The notes under the pieces: model-generated
The model's database searches: none
Told to the model about the DNA's origin: nothing
Seen by the model: only the letters and a program-made list of their open reading frames with translations
NCBI RefSeq assembly: GCF_037969765.1
Contig: NZ_CP150207.1
Location: forward strand, 5,215,501-5,279,500
Direction: 5' to 3'
Source: Paenibacillus sp. FSL W8-0186
GTDB taxonomy: Bacteria > Bacillota > Bacilli > Paenibacillales > Paenibacillaceae
Length of the DNA: 64,000 nucleotides
Shown: in pieces, positions 1 through 11,055 of the stretch
How positions within the stretch are numbered: the stretch's first letter is position 1
Layout of the letters: every line of letters starts with the position of its first letter
Made by a program: the position numbers and the translations under genes

Positions 1-1555
1 TCATGGGCTCGGTATCTCTGCCAGTTCCTACAAGCAGGCCTTCAGCTCCTTATCCGGCGGAGAGAAGACGAAGATCGGTCTAGCCGTCATTTTGCTGCAG
101 CAGCCGGATGTTCTTCTGCTTGACGAGCCGACCAATCATTTGGACCTGGCTGCCGTCCATTGGCTAGAGGAATTTCTGCATGCTTTTAAAGGTACCGTTA
201 CCGTGATCTCCCATGACCGCTACTTTCTGGACAGGGTAGCCGATAAAATCATCGAAATCGAGGACGGTGAAGCATTTACCTACCCCTGCAGCTATAGCGA
301 ATACAAAAATGAGAAAGAACGCAGGCTGCTCCAGCAATTTGCCAACTATCAAGAACAGCAGAAGAAAATTAAGAAAATGCAGGAGGCCATCAAGCAACTG
401 ATTGAGTGGGGAAACCGTTCCAACCCGCCGAACGCGGGATTCCACCGCAGAGCAGCCTCCATGCAAAAGGCGCTGGACCGCATGGTCAAGCTGAAAAGGC
501 CCGTGCTCGAACGAAAGCGCATCGACCTGCAGCTGTCGCAGTCTGACCGTTCCGGCAAAGATGTCATCGTCCTGCGGGAAGCAGGTAAAAGCCTCGGGGA
601 ACGCACGCTGTACCGCGGTATAAATCATACGCTTCGCTACGGAGAGAACGCTGCCTTAATCGGCGGCAACGGTGCTGGAAAAACGACGCTCATGAAGTGC
701 ATTCTAGGCATGGAACCCGTTCAGGAGGGGGAGATTCGGCTCGGCTCGCGGGTGGAAACCGGCTATCTTGCACAAGAATCGGCACCCAAGGACGACCCCT
801 GCACGGTACTGGAGTATTTTCGGAATGGACTCGGCATGGAAGCCGGGGAAGCCCGTAATCAGCTTGCGCGCTTCCTTTTTTACGGAAGTGACGTTTTCAA
901 GAAGGTTCATAGTCTGTCAGGCGGTGAATGGACGAGGCTGAGATTGGCTATGCTGATGTACCGCAAACCGAATTTGCTGCTCCTGGATGAACCGACCAAC
1001 CATCTGGACATCGACTCCCGGGAAGCCCTGGAGGACGCGCTCGAGGAATATCCCGGCTCTGTGCTCGTCATCTCCCATGACCGATATTTTATCAACAAAA
1101 TCGCAGACCAGATTTGGGAGCTTGCTGGAGGCAAAATGTTCATTACCGAAGGCGGCTATGCCGACTATCAGGCTGAGCTGAATAAGCGGAAGCCTGCGGC
1201 AAACGGACAGTCCGCGCAGGCATACGAATTCAGCGCGGCGAGAGATTCCGCTCTCCCCAAATTGCCCGCTTCGGAAGCTTCCCCTAACGGAAAAATGCGA
1301 AACAAAGCAGAGCAGATCTCGGGGCAAGAGCACGATCCTTCTGCCTCTTCCGCCGCTAACCCTGCCACGCTCCGCAAAATGGAACAGGAGATATCCTCCA
1401 TGGAGCAGAGGATTGCACAGATCGATGAGGCTATGCTTGATCCGGGCATCGGGAGCGACGCAGATAAGCTGAACGTTCTGCTGGAGGAGCGTGTTGAAAT
1501 TCAGCGGACTCTCGATCCGCTCATTGATAAATATATTTCCCTTTTAGAAAAGTGA
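1..1555 (+). CDS. ABC-F family ATPase, 5' end outside the window
   Basis: The reading frame is open from the window edge, so the N-terminal part is missing. It begins just before the first signature motif (LSGGEKTK, about base 53). Walker B LLLDEPTNHLD, the switch ISHDRYF, an interdomain linker and a complete second ATPase domain follow: Walker A GGNGAGKTT, signature LSGGEWTRLRLA and a second DEPTNHLD. Two ATPase domains with no membrane segments define ABC-F, soluble translation factors that act on the ribosome. The last ~100 residues are charged and heptad-like, consistent with the C-terminal coiled coil of housekeeping ABC-Fs such as YdiF/YfmM. The exact subfamily cannot be fixed without the N-terminus. 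A housekeeping translation role is more likely than resistance, but this is inference. Confidence 0.9.
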   Translation, partial: HGLGISASSYKQAFSSLSGGEKTKIGLAVILLQQPDVLLLDEPTNHLDLAAVHWLEEFLHAFKGTVTVISHDRYFLDRVADKIIEIEDGEAFTYPCSYSEYKNEKERRLLQQFANYQEQQKKIKKMQEAIKQLIEWGNRSNPPNAGFHRRAASMQKALDRMVKLKRPVLERKRIDLQLSQSDRSGKDVIVLREAGKSLGERTLYRGINHTLRYGENAALIGGNGAGKTTLMKCILGMEPVQEGEIRLGSRVETGYLAQESAPKDDPCTVLEYFRNGLGMEAGEARNQLARFLFYGSDVFKKVHSLSGGEWTRLRLAMLMYRKPNLLLLDEPTNHLDIDSREALEDALEEYPGSVLVISHDRYFINKIADQIWELAGGKMFITEGGYADYQAELNKRKPAANGQSAQAYEFSAARDSALPKLPASEASPNGKMRNKAEQISGQEHDPSASSAANPATLRKMEQEISSMEQRIAQIDEAMLDPGIGSDADKLNVLLEERVEIQRTLDPLIDKYISLLEK

Positions 1556-5176: not shown

Positions 5177-7030
5177 TCATACCTCGGACAGAGCCTGTAT
5201 CTTCCTGCGGACTTCGGCAATTGCCCGCATCAATTCCTCCCGTTCTCCGGGAGATTCCGGCTCCTCACGCGCCATCAGAACAGCCAGCTCCAGCCCCAGG
5301 CGCTCCCGTTCGTTGTCAGCCACTTGCCCGGCGGAATCCCGCCGGTTCACCCGATCCTTGGATTCATATTCCTCCACCGTACCCGGGAACCACTCCGGCT
5401 CCTTCCTCCCGTCCAGCAGCAGCAGCCGATTGCAGACCTTGCGGGCCAAATATCTGTCGTGTGTTACGATCATAAGCGCCCCTGGATATGAGCATAACGC
5501 TTCCTCAACAACTTCCCGTGTCTCGATGTCCAGATAATTGGTCGGCTCATCGAGGATGAGCAGATTGGACTGGCCGAAAAACAACCTCAGAAACGCTACC
5601 CGGCATTTCTCGCCCATGCTCAAATCGCCGATTTTCTTATACACCTCATCCCTGGAAAATAAAAAACAGCCCAGAATCGTCCTTGCATGCGATTCGGTCA
5701 TATCCGGCAGCACCAGCAGGCTGTCCAGAATACTCATGCCCTCTTCCAGGTTATGCAGCTCCTGGGCAAAATAACCGATCTGAGCCTGCGGATGCAGGGC
5801 AACCGCGCCTGAAAACGGGGCAAGCTGACCCGTTACCAGCTTGAGCAGCGTAGACTTGCCCGTTCCGTTAGGCCCCAATACGCCGACCCGGTCCCCCCGT
5901 TCCACTTGAAGATTGAAGTGGCGGAACAGCAGATCCTGGCCGTAGCCGAAGCTAACATCGTTCATGCGCAGCAAGGTCGACGCCGCAAACGCTCCGTCCT
6001 GCAGGTTCATTCGAAGCTTTTTTGCCTCGCGGGGCTTCTCCACCCGATCCCGCTCCAGTCGCTCCAGCTCCTTCTGTTTCGCATGATAACGCGAAATATT
6101 CTTCTTCGCCTTCGCCTTGTAGAAGCTCGCCGTGATCGCCACATCCAAATTATCCGCGCGGGCAGCCCGGTGGGCCTGATGGAACCATTCCTGGTAGCGC
6201 CGGATGGATTGCTCCAGAGCCTGCTTCGCCTGCTCCTGCTTTTTGTACGTCGTCATTTGGGTGCGCCACTCGACCTCCTTCTGCTGCCGGTAATCGCTGT
6301 AGCCGCCTGCATAACACCGGCATCCATTGGCCTGCAGCTCCAGAATGGACGTAGCCGTCCGGTCCATGAATGTCCGGTCATGCGACACGTACAGGATCGT
6401 TCCTTCATAGGTGCGAACCCACTCTTCCAGGTCGTTCAGGGACTGGGTATCGAGATGGTTCGTCGGCTCATCCAGCAGGACGAACTTCGGCTCGCGAACC
6501 ATCAGGGCAGCGAGCTGCGCTCTCGTCTTCTGCCCGCCGCTCAGCCGGTCAAACGGCAAATTCCACAGCTCCGGCGGCAGGTTCATTTGCCCCAGGCGCT
6601 TCTCTGCTTTGACCTCCCAATCATAGCCGCCAAGCTGCATATACCGCTCATAAATCAAACCGTATCGCTCCACGCTTGCCTCCGAGGCTTGACCGGATCC
6701 CATTTCGCTCTGCAATTGCTCCAGTTCTTTTTTCAGCTCATAGATTTCTCCGGATCGGGACTGCACGTATTCCAGCAGCGTTAATGGCGAATCGAGGTCG
6801 ACCTGCTGCTCCATCCAGCCCCATTCTTCGAGCGGCAGCACCCTGTGGACACGCCCCTCCTCGAAGCTGATCTTACCCAGCAGGCCCTGCAGCAAAGTTG
6901 TCTTCCCGGAGCCGTTTCGGCCGAATAGCGCCACCCGCTCTCCGCTGCCTACTTCAAACGAGAGGTCTGTAAACAATGCCTCTCCATTCCATTCCTTCCT
7001 TAAACCCTTAACTGTTAAAACCATCGTCAT
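5177..7030 (-). CDS. ABC-F type ribosome-protection protein, probable antibiotic resistance
   Basis: A 617-residue soluble protein with two ATPase domains. Domain 1 has Walker A GRNGSGKTT, signature LSGGQKTRAQLAAL and Walker B LLDEPTNHLD. Domain 2 has GPNGTGKST, an atypical signature LSMGEKCRVAF and LILDEPTNYLD. The interdomain linker (about residues 245-335) is long, basic and helical (KAKAKKNISRYHAKQKELERL), as expected for the element that reaches the peptidyl-transferase centre. The leader RNA is an attenuator with a tiny upstream ORF, the arrangement of drug-inducible ABC-F genes. Start ATG at 7030 with GGGGG about ten bases upstream. Which drug class it protects against cannot be read from sequence. 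Confidence 0.85.
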   Translation of the reverse strand: MTMVLTVKGLRKEWNGEALFTDLSFEVGSGERVALFGRNGSGKTTLLQGLLGKISFEEGRVHRVLPLEEWGWMEQQVDLDSPLTLLEYVQSRSGEIYELKKELEQLQSEMGSGQASEASVERYGLIYERYMQLGGYDWEVKAEKRLGQMNLPPELWNLPFDRLSGGQKTRAQLAALMVREPKFVLLDEPTNHLDTQSLNDLEEWVRTYEGTILYVSHDRTFMDRTATSILELQANGCRCYAGGYSDYRQQKEVEWRTQMTTYKKQEQAKQALEQSIRRYQEWFHQAHRAARADNLDVAITASFYKAKAKKNISRYHAKQKELERLERDRVEKPREAKKLRMNLQDGAFAASTLLRMNDVSFGYGQDLLFRHFNLQVERGDRVGVLGPNGTGKSTLLKLVTGQLAPFSGAVALHPQAQIGYFAQELHNLEEGMSILDSLLVLPDMTESHARTILGCFLFSRDEVYKKIGDLSMGEKCRVAFLRLFFGQSNLLILDEPTNYLDIETREVVEEALCSYPGALMIVTHDRYLARKVCNRLLLLDGRKEPEWFPGTVEEYESKDRVNRRDSAGQVADNERERLGLELAVLMAREEPESPGEREELMRAIAEVRRKIQALSEV

Positions 7031-7203
7031 TTCACATCATCCCCCGTTTCGCGAATATAGAACGCAAATAACCGTGGCCAGCGGCACACGGTCAGATACA
7101 CATACAGCGAAATAGGGGTACAACCATAAGGAGAAACAGACTCAGACGCCAAAATAAGCGCTGGTTCAGCTATCCTTATGATCGTAGCAGTCTTTTTGAG
7201 TAC

Positions 7204-7331
7204 AAAAAAAGAAGACCCTAAGTCGACACACGTATCCCTGACCGGCTCCCGATGTCACGAGAGCGCCGCTTGCCTGCTGACAAGTTGTCTTGTGGGAACG
7301 TGTTCTTACTCCATCGTCTAAGGGTCCTCCT
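7204..7331 (-). promoter_or_regulatory. transcription attenuator (leader terminator) of the ABC-F gene
   Basis: On the minus strand the leader contains an AGGAGG (7331-7326), then a 5' arm GACCCUUAG (7326-7318). Its complement CUUAGGGUC (7222-7214) is followed directly by seven U (7210-7204). An inner stem pairs ACACGUUCCC (7303-7294) with GGGAUACGUGU (7238-7228, one bulge). The whole thus folds into a long intrinsic terminator 174 bases before the ABC-F start. The 5' arm lies exactly between the Shine-Dalgarno and start codon of the two-codon ORF, so a ribosome stalled there would prevent terminator folding. This geometry is that of ribosome-mediated attenuation. The pairing was done by eye. 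Confidence 0.75.
7306..7314 (-). CDS. two-codon regulatory upstream ORF (Met-Glu-stop)
   Basis: ATG-GAG-TAA on the minus strand, preceded by a perfect AGGAGG 11 bases upstream. The spacing is slightly long. It sits on the 5' side of the attenuator hairpin. Very short uORFs, including a three-residue one, are known from drug-inducible ABC-F leaders such as Listeria lmo0919. The peptide itself is too short for function; the relevant act would be drug-bound ribosomes pausing at start or stop. No direct proof of translation. Confidence 0.5.
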   Translation of the reverse strand: ME

Positions 7332-7367
7332 GAATAGTTAAAATAATGGGTTGCTTCTTACTCTTTT

Positions 7368-7397
7368 ATTATTACCATGAATTCCAATCGAGAGCAA
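7368..7397 (-). promoter_or_regulatory. predicted sigma-A promoter of the ABC-F leader
   Basis: On the minus strand TTGCTC (7397-7392) and AATAAT (7373-7368) are separated by 18 bp. Transcription would start near 7361, about 30 bases before the AGGAGG of the leader. The promoter lies between the stop of the upstream ABC exporter gene and the attenuator, giving the ABC-F gene its own start besides possible read-through. Confidence 0.5.
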
Positions 7398-7438
7398 GCC
7401 GCCTTTCCGGATTACCGGAATAAACGAATTTAGCGGGT

Positions 7439-9331
7439 TTACCCGACTTCGAGATCAAAGCCGCCTTTGGAGAATTGGCTGTTGTACAGATCGGCGTAGA
7501 ATCCGCCTTGTGCCAGCAGTTCTTCATGGGTGCCCTGCTCGATGACCGAACCATGATTCATGACCAGAATCAAATCCGCATCCTTGATCGTCGACAAGCG
7601 GTGCGCAATGACAAAGCTCGTGCGCCCCTTCATCAGTTCATTCATCGCCTTCTGGATATAAATTTCCGTCCGCGTATCCACGCTGCTCGTCGCTTCATCC
7701 AGGATAAGAATCGCCGGATCGGCAAGAACAGCCCGCGCTATGGTCAGAAGCTGCTTCTGGCCTTGTGAGATATTGGAGGCTTCTTCGTTCAGAATCGTAT
7801 CATACCCGTCCGGCAGCGTGCGGATGAAATGATCGGCATGCGCCGTCATCGCGGCCTGGATGATCTCCTCCTCCGTCGCTCCTTCACGCCCGTAGGCGAT
7901 ATTGTCGCGAATTGTGCCGTTGAACAGCCAGGTATCCTGAAGCACCATGCCGAATAGACTGCGCAGGTTCCCCCGGCTCATTTCCGTAATATCGACCCCG
8001 TCGATCGTAATCGAGCCGCCGTTCAATTCATAGAAACGCATCAGCAGATTGATTAGGGTCGTCTTCCCGGCCCCCGTAGGGCCCACGATGGCGATCGTCT
8101 GACCTTTCGAGGCATGTATATTCATATCTTCGATCAGTATCGCTTGATCCTGGTAGCCAAACCGAACATGATTGAAGGAAACCTCTCCTTGCGGCTCTTC
8201 AATTTTAACGGGGTGAGCCGGATCTGGAATTTCCTCGGCTTCGTCCAGCACCTCGAATACACGTTCCGAGGAAGCCACAGTGGATTGAATGATATTGGCA
8301 ATGTTAGCCGTTTGCGAGATCGGCTGGGACAGCTGTCTCGTATACTGAATGAACGCCTGAATGTCGCCGATCTTAATTTTTCCCTTCAGGACAAGAATGC
8401 CGCCTACCACGGCAACCAGCACGTAACCGATATTGCCAATGAAGCTCATGATCGGCATGATCACGCCAGAAATGAATTGCGCCTTCCAGCCCGCGTCATA
8501 CAGGCGCTCGTTGATCTCATCGAATTGCTGCAGCGATTTTTGCTCGCGGCCGAACACTTTGACCACCTTGTGGCCAGTGTACATTTCCTCCACATGACCG
8601 TTCAGCATGCCAAGCTCCTTCTGCTGGCGGACAAACTGGCGCTGGGAACGCTTGGCGATCGAGGTGATCGCCACGATGCTCAGCGGGATCGTCAATACCG
8701 CGATCAACGTCATTAACGGACTGATCGAGAGCATCATCACGATAACCCCGATGATGGTCAGAACCGATGAAATCAGCTGGGTCATGCTCTGCTGCAGGGT
8801 GGAGCTGATATTGTCCATATCGTTCGTCACCCGGCTGAGAATTTCCCCATGCGTTCTGGCGTCATAATATTTGAGCGGCAGACGCGACAGCTTGTCGTTC
8901 ACTTGCTTCCGCAAATTGTAGACCGTCTTCTGCGAGACATCCGCCATTAAATACTGCTGGAAGTAGCTGAATAGAGCACTCAATAAGTACAGTCCAAGCA
9001 AAGTAAGAATAATTCTTCCGATGGCATCGAAGTCGATAGCCGCCCCCGGAATCCCATTCATTTTCCCCATGATTCCTTCGAATAGTATAGTCGTCGCATC
9101 CCCCATAACCCTCGGGCTAAGAATGGCGAATACCGTACTAAGGACAGCCATGAGGACCACGGAACCAATCTGCAGCCGGAACGGACGCATATAAGTTATA
9201 AGGCGTCTGAGCGTGCCTTTGAAATCCTTTGCCTTTTCGGCCGGCACTCCCATTCCGGGCGGGCCGCCATGCCCCCGGCCTCCGCCGAAGCCGCCTGGTC
9301 TTTTTGCGCTTTGTTTTTGGCTCTGGCTCAT
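7439..9331 (-). CDS. heterodimeric multidrug ABC exporter, canonical-ATPase subunit (YfiC-like)
   Basis: A 630-residue fused permease-ATPase. A Gly-rich N-terminal tail (GGFGGGRGHGGPPG) precedes six transmembrane helices (about residues 50-340). The ATPase domain has Walker A GPTGAGKTT, signature ISQGQKQLLTIA, Walker B ILILDEATSSVD with the catalytic Glu, and H-loop IAHRLSTI. Its start overlaps the stop of the partner gene in ATGA. The partner has a degenerate Walker B, so the pair should form a heterodimer with one fully active site, like YfiBC/LmrCD/BmrCD. Substrates are unknown. MarR control suggests response to toxic compounds. Confidence 0.9.
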   Translation of the reverse strand: MSQSQKQSAKRPGGFGGGRGHGGPPGMGVPAEKAKDFKGTLRRLITYMRPFRLQIGSVVLMAVLSTVFAILSPRVMGDATTILFEGIMGKMNGIPGAAIDFDAIGRIILTLLGLYLLSALFSYFQQYLMADVSQKTVYNLRKQVNDKLSRLPLKYYDARTHGEILSRVTNDMDNISSTLQQSMTQLISSVLTIIGVIVMMLSISPLMTLIAVLTIPLSIVAITSIAKRSQRQFVRQQKELGMLNGHVEEMYTGHKVVKVFGREQKSLQQFDEINERLYDAGWKAQFISGVIMPIMSFIGNIGYVLVAVVGGILVLKGKIKIGDIQAFIQYTRQLSQPISQTANIANIIQSTVASSERVFEVLDEAEEIPDPAHPVKIEEPQGEVSFNHVRFGYQDQAILIEDMNIHASKGQTIAIVGPTGAGKTTLINLLMRFYELNGGSITIDGVDITEMSRGNLRSLFGMVLQDTWLFNGTIRDNIAYGREGATEEEIIQAAMTAHADHFIRTLPDGYDTILNEEASNISQGQKQLLTIARAVLADPAILILDEATSSVDTRTEIYIQKAMNELMKGRTSFVIAHRLSTIKDADLILVMNHGSVIEQGTHEELLAQGGFYADLYNSQFSKGGFDLEVG

Positions 9332-11055
9332 GCGATCTCCTCCTCTGACAGCTGGGACAAGACGATTTCCCGGTACACCTCGCAGGTGTCCATCAATTCC
9401 TGATGCTTGCCGATCCCCGCGATTCGGCTCTCGTCCATCACGATGATCTGATCGGCATCCAGGACGGTACTTACCCGCTGAGCGACGATAATGACGGTGG
9501 ATTCCCCGGTCTCCTGCTTGAGCGCTGCGCGCAGCTTGGAATCCGTCTTGAAATCAAGCGCCGAGAAGCTGTCGTCGAAAATATATATTTCCGCCTGGCG
9601 TACCAATGCCCGGGCAATGGAGAGACGCTGCTTCTGACCGCCGGAGACGTTGGAGCCGCCCTGCGCGATTGGGGAGTCATACCCTTGCTCCATCTTAGAG
9701 ATGAAGTCGGCCGCTTGGGCAATTTCCGCCGCATGCCGCACCTCCTCATCGCTGGCATCCTCTTTCCCGTATCGGATATTGTCGCTGATCGTGCCTGTGA
9801 ACAGTACGGCTTTCTGCGGAACGAAACCGATCTTCGAGCGCAGCTCATGCTGGGACATGTCCCTGACATCGGTGCCGTTCACCAGTACGCAGCCTTCCTC
9901 CACGTCATAAAACCTCGGAATGAGATTAATCAGCGTAGATTTGCCGGAGCCTGTACCGCCGATGATCGCCGTCACCTCGCCGGGACGGGCCGCAAAGCTG
10001 ATATCCTGGATTGCCGGCTTCTCGGCGCCAGGGTAGCTAAACGACACGTTCTGGAACTCGACGTGGCCTTTTTGCCCATTCACGGGCGCCGGCGCATCCG
10101 TATCCTTGATGACCGGAGCCATATCCAGCACTTCATTGATCCGGACAGCCGAAGCCGACGCGCGCGGAATCATTACGAACATCATCGACACCATTACAAG
10201 CGAGAACATAATTTGCATCGCATACTGCAGGAACGCCATCAGATCCCCAACCTGCATCATTTCCGCTTCGATCCGAAGCCCGCCGAACCAAATGATCGCG
10301 ACCGATGACAGATTCATCACCAGCATCATGACCGGCATCATGAAAGCCATAATTTTATTGACTTTGATCGAGATATCCGTCAAGTCATAGTTCGCTTGGT
10401 CAAAGCGCATTTTCTCATGCTGAACCCGGTTAAAGGAACGGATGACGCGGATTCCCGTCAAATTCTCCCGCATGACCAGATTCAATTTGTCGATCTTCTT
10501 CTGGATCGCCTTGAACAGCGGAATGCCCTTTCGGGCAATTAGAAAAATAGCCAGCGCCAGCACGGGCAGAACTACCACGAAAATGAACGACAGCGTGGGG
10601 TCCTTCGAGACGGCCATAATGATTCCGCCTATACAGAGCATCGGCGCCATGACCATCATCCGCAAAATCATGATCAGCACCTGCTGCACTTGCGTAATGT
10701 CGTTCGTTGTACGCGTAATCAGTGACGCCGTGCCGAGCTTGTCGAACTCCTCCAGGGAGAAATTCTCGACATGGTTAAACACCTTCCCCCGCAGCAGCTT
10801 TCCGAATCCTGTCGCCGCCCGGGAGGCAAAATAGCTGGCTGCGATGGAGCAGAGCATTCCCCCAAGCGCTACCAGCAGCATAAAGGAGCCAACCTTCCAT
10901 ATATATGGTGTATCGCCGTTGACTACGCCAATATCCACGATATCCGCCATCAGCGTCGGCAGGTAAAGCTCGGATAGCGATTGAAAAAACACCAGCACGA
11001 GCACGGCCAGAACCGGCAGCCGGAACGGCTTCAAAAACCGAAAAAGCTTAGTCAT
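9328..11055 (-). CDS. heterodimeric multidrug ABC exporter, degenerate-ATPase subunit (YfiB-like)
   Basis: A 575-residue type IV ABC half-transporter with six transmembrane helices in the first ~310 residues. Walker A is GGTGSGKST and the signature VSGGQKQRLSIA. Walker B reads IYIFDDSFSALD, so the catalytic Glu is replaced by Asp, and the H-loop region reads IVAQRVST with Gln instead of His. Both losses mark the non-catalytic site half of heterodimeric exporters. It is the middle gene of marR-abc-abc, joined by ATGA overlaps on both sides. Start ATG at 11055. Confidence 0.9.
   Translation of the reverse strand: MTKLFRFLKPFRLPVLAVLVLVFFQSLSELYLPTLMADIVDIGVVNGDTPYIWKVGSFMLLVALGGMLCSIAASYFASRAATGFGKLLRGKVFNHVENFSLEEFDKLGTASLITRTTNDITQVQQVLIMILRMMVMAPMLCIGGIIMAVSKDPTLSFIFVVVLPVLALAIFLIARKGIPLFKAIQKKIDKLNLVMRENLTGIRVIRSFNRVQHEKMRFDQANYDLTDISIKVNKIMAFMMPVMMLVMNLSSVAIIWFGGLRIEAEMMQVGDLMAFLQYAMQIMFSLVMVSMMFVMIPRASASAVRINEVLDMAPVIKDTDAPAPVNGQKGHVEFQNVSFSYPGAEKPAIQDISFAARPGEVTAIIGGTGSGKSTLINLIPRFYDVEEGCVLVNGTDVRDMSQHELRSKIGFVPQKAVLFTGTISDNIRYGKEDASDEEVRHAAEIAQAADFISKMEQGYDSPIAQGGSNVSGGQKQRLSIARALVRQAEIYIFDDSFSALDFKTDSKLRAALKQETGESTVIIVAQRVSTVLDADQIIVMDESRIAGIGKHQELMDTCEVYREIVLSQLSEEEIA

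Follow-up and report, generated by a model that had tools for sequence, protein, structure and literature searches.

Among the described attenuators of ABC-F genes, that of vmlR in Bacillus subtilis offers the closest comparison with the leader analysed here. As described in PMC9226507, in a model that was partly tested, its upstream open reading frame (uORF) is set in a bulge of SL-1, the first hairpin and anti-antiterminator; SL-2 caps the antiterminator, SL-3 is the terminator, and SL-4 locks the Shine-Dalgarno (SD) sequence. Induction by lincomycin requires both the start codon and the SD of the uORF, and the uORF variants MDN and MDK perform at least as well as MIN whereas MRK is less efficient, so that the peptide may matter somewhat, its identity counting in part only (PMC9226507). 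In Clostridioides difficile, cplR is described as undergoing combined transcription and translation attenuation via a very short uORF, MRI, with short uORFs also predicted for VmlR2 (MK[L/Q]) and LsaA (MAGN) (PMC10201436). A lincomycin-responsive attenuator, lmo0919/rli53, precedes an ABC-F gene in Listeria (PMC11550727), and the Streptomyces genes are5sc and tiaA have uORFs of three and nine codons (PMC12421871). The ABC-F uORFs given in these descriptions are MIN, MRI, MK[L/Q], MAGN, MLV, MRS and MVGDDDISG (PMC9226507, PMC10201436, PMC12421871). The default minimum of the tool uORF4u is stated as nine nucleotides, called three codons (PMC10219788), which places two-codon frames at the edge of its reach, and a two-codon minigene is described in the axe-txe toxin-antitoxin operon (PMC8708949). 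Among the matches listed in our literature search, which left most subscription papers outside its range, no publication dealt with the present leader or with an ABC-F gene preceded by a uORF of two codons.

In the window, the whole 64,000-nucleotide stretch of Paenibacillus DNA that was analysed, the minus strand carries an AGGAGG, an ATG-GAG-TAA and a long hairpin followed by U7, 0.28 kb 5' of an ABC-F gene (Table 1), as an earlier note on this DNA had claimed. This hairpin, SL1, is closed at its base by AGGGTCTTCTT pairing with the SD and spacer. The same note had put the terminator's 5' arm exactly between the SD and the start codon; the spacer is indeed paired, but in the fold of 7345–7200 the uORF SD and the AU of the AUG are paired as well. 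That fold has an energy of −52.2 kcal/mol (z −3.96; none of 200 shuffles as good), and folding of the entire leader, 7400–7030, proposed at the outset as a check, gave z −5.3 (100 shuffles). The spacing between SD and AUG is long, being 11 nt from GGAGG to AUG in the window and 10–15 nt across the 114 leaders considered below. As to the promoter that the leader was said to own, our preferred reading is TTGCTC-17-TAATAA, its −10 preceded by TG, a candidate that is weak by consensus: the best site 5' of the uORF scored 8/12, and a strict scan of the window leader found none at 9/12 or more. Promoter-like sites of at least 9/12 lie upstream of the uORF in 26 of 38 representative leaders, compared to 9.8% of mononucleotide shuffles. 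The genes at 7439–11055 (minus) encode two ABC half-transporters that resemble MsbA, though scoring below its cut-off, and stop some 40 nt short of the candidate promoter. By eye, close relatives retain the end of the half-transporter gene upstream of the leader, and the leaders of genus g28 have different upstream DNA.

Table 1. Elements of the leader and its ABC-F gene, in window coordinates.
Feature	Position	Strand	Details and basis
Candidate promoter	7369–7397	−	TTGCTC (7397–7392), 17 nt, TAATAA (7374–7369); TG directly before −10
uORF Shine-Dalgarno AGGAGG	7326–7331	−	Read from sequence; SD-like motif (broad list) before the AUG in 114/114 leaders
Two-codon uORF ATG GAG TAA (Met-Glu-stop)	7306–7314	−	Sequence and ortholog leaders
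SL1/T1, long hairpin enclosing SD and uORF, then U7 (7210–7204)	7204–7331	−	Folding, co-variation
SL1 3' strand GGTCAGGGATACGTGTGTCGACTTAGGGTCTTC	7211–7243	−	Common to SL1 and antiterminator; sequence, co-variation
Apical hairpin (TACGATCATAAGGA / TCCTTATGGTTGT)	7120–7186	−	Enclosed by antiterminator; folding; position comparable to vmlR SL-2
Competitor strand (ACCCCTATTTC ... GTATCTGACC)	7090–7119	−	Partners: SL1 3' strand (antiterminator) or, via ACCCCTATTTC (C-rich, 7119–7109), gene SD
T2, gene-proximal hairpin ACCGTGTGCCGCTGGCCACGGT (7092–7071)	7066–7092	−	Interrupted U-tract, tail TATTT; hairpin search, T-run count
ABC-F SD region GAAACGGGGG	7041–7050	−	Paired with ACCCCTATTTC and so sequestered in the repressed state
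ABC-F ATPase, ribosome-protection type, 617 aa	5177–7030	−	Start ATG 7030; NF000355 above cut-off

The likeness to vmlR, whose leader we take from its published description, is one of architecture: a short uORF in the bulge of the first hairpin, an apical hairpin, a terminator near the gene, an SD-sequestering hairpin and an ABC-F gene downstream. In both, the antiterminator is mutually exclusive with the first hairpin, the terminator and the SD-sequestering hairpin, in the present case by computation alone. The uORF differs in having two codons here and three (MIN) in vmlR, and since its relatives here range from two to nine, we treat uORF length as a variable rather than a defining feature of vmlR-type attenuators. 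Moreover, the SD lies inside the base of the hairpin here but on a single strand before the hairpin in the vmlR description, and in the window's clade the first hairpin carries a U-tract of its own. The leaders described for cplR, VmlR2 and LsaA belong to another gene lineage and differ from the present one with its two codons, and those of are5sc and tiaA, with three and nine, are actinobacterial; lmo0919/rli53, from its description, likewise has its attenuator ahead of an ABC-F gene. The two-codon uORF of the window is shorter than all seven peptides listed above, in keeping with the initial suggestion that a Met-Glu frame would be among the shortest. Relative to the known ABC-F attenuators as described, the two-codon uORF and the occurrence of the U-tract on different hairpins in related leaders are the features that stand out here.

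We compared the leaders of orthologs, which were selected on the gene without regard to the leader: 113 of the 196 leaders in the family plus one (L006) from another family, 114 in all, from which we took 38 representatives less than 78% identical to one another over three leader elements. All 114 have an AUG mini-ORF with an in-frame stop and an SD-like motif 10–15 nt upstream (for L186 this is the second-ranked candidate, chosen by hand over an unrelated ORF at −693), so that no leader was found to have lost the start codon while keeping the hairpin, a loss that the earlier note had named as grounds for rejecting its reading. The uORF has two codons in 61 leaders (46 MK, 10 ME, 4 MN, 1 MV), three in 40 (23 MNN, 11 MKN, 2 MYN, 2 MKK, 1 MNK, 1 MKQ), five in one, eight in nine and nine in three. 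Start and stop are constant, with codon 2 encoding K, E, N, D, Y or V. A chance ORF was ruled out by the frame control, in which a stop within three codons occurred in frame in 35 of the 38 representatives and in 0 and 6 in the other two frames; the corresponding counts over all 114 leaders were 101 versus 0 and 34. The uORFs of eight or nine codons are confined to two side clades, one in g20 (L180–L184, L187, L189, L199, L203), where the nine leaders have the common peptide MD[TK][HY][DG][CY]SL, and one in g29 (L217, L225, L226), with M[DK]NKMY[HD]LI in two of three leaders and MKFTTNVLI in the third. Judging by these sequences, the uORFs in question could act by peptide-dependent stalling and answer to another range of drugs.

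Whether the strands of the leader have co-evolved was assessed by swapping: the pairing energy of two strands within their own leader was compared to that with partners exchanged among the 38 representatives (20,000 permutations). For each of the four helices no permutation was as good, with own and swapped values, in kcal/mol, of −33.2 and −22.9 for SL1, −26.8 and −22.6 for the antiterminator, −12.6 and −10.7 for the anti-SD helix (competitor strand with gene SD), and −14.3 and −10.7 for the T2 arms. Two control pairings were not significant (p 0.52 and 0.40); a third, SL1 5' strand with gene SD, gave p 0.00085. This first test was run with mis-called SL1 ends for L126 and L135, which were corrected in a composition control where the second element was shuffled in place (12 shuffles per helix). 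There, the difference between own and swapped energies was −10.2 for SL1 (−1.1 after shuffling, sd 0.6), −4.1 for the antiterminator (−1.5, sd 0.7), −1.9 for the anti-SD helix (−0.35, sd 0.40) and −3.6 for T2 (−0.41, sd 0.25), and the third control, at −1.1 (−0.76, sd 0.37), fell within what composition yields. In a wider shuffle test, the antiterminator pairing was significant (p < 0.05) in 66 leaders and fell short in the other 48 of the 114, with a mean z of −2.1. In alignment A2, of 27 sequences, the 19 named SL1 pairs are standard in 89.1% of cells, compared to at most 59.2% when the strands are slid, and 11 cells have changed on both sides (0 of 500 shuffles). Weaker measures were less discriminating, 21 of 500 shuffles matching the count of co-varying pairs and 82 of 500 that of pair types, and RNAalifold returned a consensus of only three pairs for the A2 leader alignment, which we attribute to its gaps. 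Taken at the level of sequence, these data indicate that SL1, T2, the antiterminator, the anti-SD helix and the uORF are all conserved, and the models suggest that the competitor strand before T2 can pair either with the SL1 3' strand or with the gene SD.

We then modelled a ribosome on the uORF as a footprint, barring positions −15 to +16 around the AUG from pairing, with a block at +45 to +76 as control. In the window leader, the footprint lowered the probability of T2 from 0.996 to 0.002, raised the antiterminator from 0 to 23 pairs and abolished SL1 (26 to 0 pairs), whereas the control block left SL1 at 25 of 26 pairs and the other values unchanged. The gene SD opened just from 0.014 to 0.27. 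Among the 38 representatives, folded at full length and at equilibrium, the footprint increased the antiterminator in 34 and decreased it in one, lowered T2 in 16 and raised it in three, and opened the SD in 21 and closed it in seven; these folds used the SL1 end of L126 before its correction and retained L126, L135 and L224, whose geometry is odd. In genus g28 (17 leaders), T2 stayed at 0.94 on the full-length RNA with the footprint, and exclusivity of the antiterminator was not seen in the equilibrium folds. With RNA ending before the 3' arm of T2, at least eight antiterminator pairs formed in all 114 leaders with the footprint and in 43 without. Being thermodynamic rather than kinetic, these folds argue for a ribosome-driven switch from the side of modelling alone.

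The two hairpins differ in where their U-tracts occur. A T run of at least five follows T2 in 104 of 114 leaders but SL1 in only 20 (counted with T2 of L178 still mis-placed), the latter comprising 9 of 10 leaders in the window's genus, 7 of 60 in g20, the single one in g27, all three in g29 and none of the other 40. Thirteen leaders have a U-tract on both. The window's clade includes seven ME leaders, and these combine an interrupted T2 tail, TTATTTG, with U6–U7 on SL1. A hairpin with a T-rich tail near the gene was found in 114/114 leaders, although the first picks included errors, several of which were re-set by motif and that of L198 by hand. In L198 (genome G167) the T2 tail is likewise interrupted (TTATTCG), and SL1 has no T run of five. 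The U-tract behind the long intrinsic terminator that the earlier note placed at the uORF hairpin is lacking in most relatives. SL1 is, on these sequences, probably an anti-antiterminator first and in the window's clade an intrinsic terminator also, and we infer that terminator function has shifted between hairpins, the direction apparently being from the gene-proximal to the uORF hairpin.

R2, a covariance model of SL1, found a single copy in the window's genome. In the order it matched 54 of 392 genomes, of which 50 belong to the family and four to another; in the class it matched 11 of 398, ten of these being genomes already matched in the order set and the eleventh belonging to a further family. 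An ortholog of this ABC-F gene lies downstream of the match in all 55 distinct genomes, as confirmed for 39 by tblastn on the loci (40/40 loci, two being in one genome) and for 16 by position relative to the gene matches. The five matches outside the family have two-codon uORFs, MK in four and MN in one. The genome counts are lower bounds, coming from samples and strict filters, and g16 and g29 went unmatched despite having leaders of the same plan. A profile scan of contigs with alignment A1, built on generic ABC-F motifs, gave 80 loci of at most 34% identity; applied to 27 of these together with L266 and the window, R2 matched only the last two. A known Rfam element was ruled out as the identity of the leader, no covariance model matching either the scanned region around it (6900–7600, E up to 1) or the whole window at gathering threshold.

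The downstream gene, with orthologs (E ≤ 1e-140) in 196 of 394 family genomes, encodes a protein that scores 477.8 bits against NCBIfam NF000355 (ribosomal-protection-like ABC-F; cut-off 380) and, among the best 25 of 191 families, falls below every subfamily cut-off for Sal (398.6 versus 725, for example), Vga, Lsa, Msr, OptrA and CplR; the ccmA cut-off is also nominally passed (137.5 versus 131.6), as a match to the ATPase domain. Its top hits in the PDB are 7p48 and 8buu, the second of these being VmlR2; VmlR2 and VmlR both stand among its structure matches. Six aligned orthologs are 49–87% identical to it. TaeA of Paenibacillus sp. LC231 is probably not the same gene, the description in PMC6723617 placing TaeA in Uup.

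We consider it very likely that this leader is an attenuator of the vmlR type that senses ribosomes through a minimal uORF; translation of the uORF, stalling by a drug, termination and resistance are what we infer from its design. Without drug, ribosomes would leave the two-codon uORF at once, and the SL1 5' strand, with the SD and uORF, would then pair with the SL1 3' strand, so that transcription would halt at the SL1 U-tract in the window's clade, or at T2, and the strand before T2 would hold the ABC-F SD. Drugs that prevent formation of the first peptide bonds would keep the ribosome on the AUG and the SL1 5' strand occupied; the freed SL1 3' strand would pair with the strand before T2, disabling T1, T2 and the anti-SD helix together, and the ABC-F gene would be transcribed and translated. 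By analogy with the described systems, PTC drugs of the lincosamide-streptogramin A-pleuromutilin group would be the likely inducers. The uORF-controlled attenuator before an ABC-F gene that had been postulated from the window alone finds support in conservation, co-variation and folding, but its action by masking of a single terminator gives an incomplete picture, the second hairpin at 7092–7066 and the antiterminator linking the two having been missed.

Not all that is conserved need reflect translation. The pairs A15–U168 and U16–G167 are invariant in 27/27 aligned leaders and sequence conservation is high beyond the uORF too, as would be expected if the AUG were kept only as part of the hairpin, with the uORF untranslated and some other RNA-binding factor, a protein or small molecule, in control. 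Conservation of the SL1 3' strand would, however, also be expected of a strand that must pair with two partners, and an untranslated frame accounts poorly for an SD-like motif before every AUG, for stops that fall within three codons mostly in frame, and for uORF lengths that vary by whole codons (2, 3, 5, 8, 9); the lack of an Rfam match counts against such a factor as well, and we regard this explanation as unlikely. A leader that senses amino-acid starvation or a general slowing of initiation, and not a resistance drug, would fit the window folds equally, any ribosome held on the uORF being able to flip them. Yet codon 2 may be Glu, Lys, Asn, Val, Asp or Tyr, and therefore no single tRNA is read; with an ortholog of this ABC-F downstream at every leader match checked, sensing of this kind appears very unlikely.

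The U7 hairpin does lie about 0.1–0.2 kb downstream of the ABC-transporter genes (7439–11055) and on their strand, where it might merely terminate that operon beside a mini-ORF that arose by chance. But the leader accompanies the ABC-F gene where the upstream DNA differs (by eye) and in other families, and its relatives all keep the uORF while just 20 of 114 have an SL1 U-tract of five or more, a pattern contrary to that expected of an operon terminator, which makes this the least credible of the explanations considered, to be entertained only barely. Returning to the ribosome-sensing attenuator, we hold a bolder version of it with no more than even confidence: that this is a widespread leader RNA, as yet unnamed, whose peptide plays no part and whose sensor is the ribosome trapped on the AUG, and that the terminator has moved, in the window's clade, to the uORF hairpin, so that one footprint would break the terminator directly and, through the strand it releases, the second hairpin and the SD lock, the side clades with 8–9 codons perhaps serving for a different drug. 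On that reading, the uORF would consist of a start, one free codon and a stop because the sensor is the ribosome on the AUG itself.

If correct, this would define how short a regulatory reading frame can be. Met-X-stop leaves almost no nascent chain to be sensed, and the leader would therefore report only drugs or events that hold the ribosome at initiation. The natural series of 2, 3, 8 and 9 codons before orthologous genes would allow uORF length to be related to drug specificity, and the two hairpins would provide an example of terminator function differing in place among related leaders. Going by sequence, inducible intrinsic resistance would be predicted wherever gene and leader occur together, the gene being present in about half the family genomes sampled.

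Other departures were seen at individual loci. L184 and L187 carry insertions between T2 and the ABC-F start with, by eye, the look of inverted repeats, and in L187 the inserted sequence is apparently present in two copies between T2 and the gene. The L005 ortholog (G001:C2:10036-12117) has 695 aa as opposed to 617, the surplus of some 70–80 residues falling near query position 360, between the ATPase halves. Finally, the window contains a second ABC-F gene (1–1177, plus strand; G000:C1:5215052-5216677), 32% identical to the first and about 4 kb from it, which runs past the left edge and has its leader outside the window.
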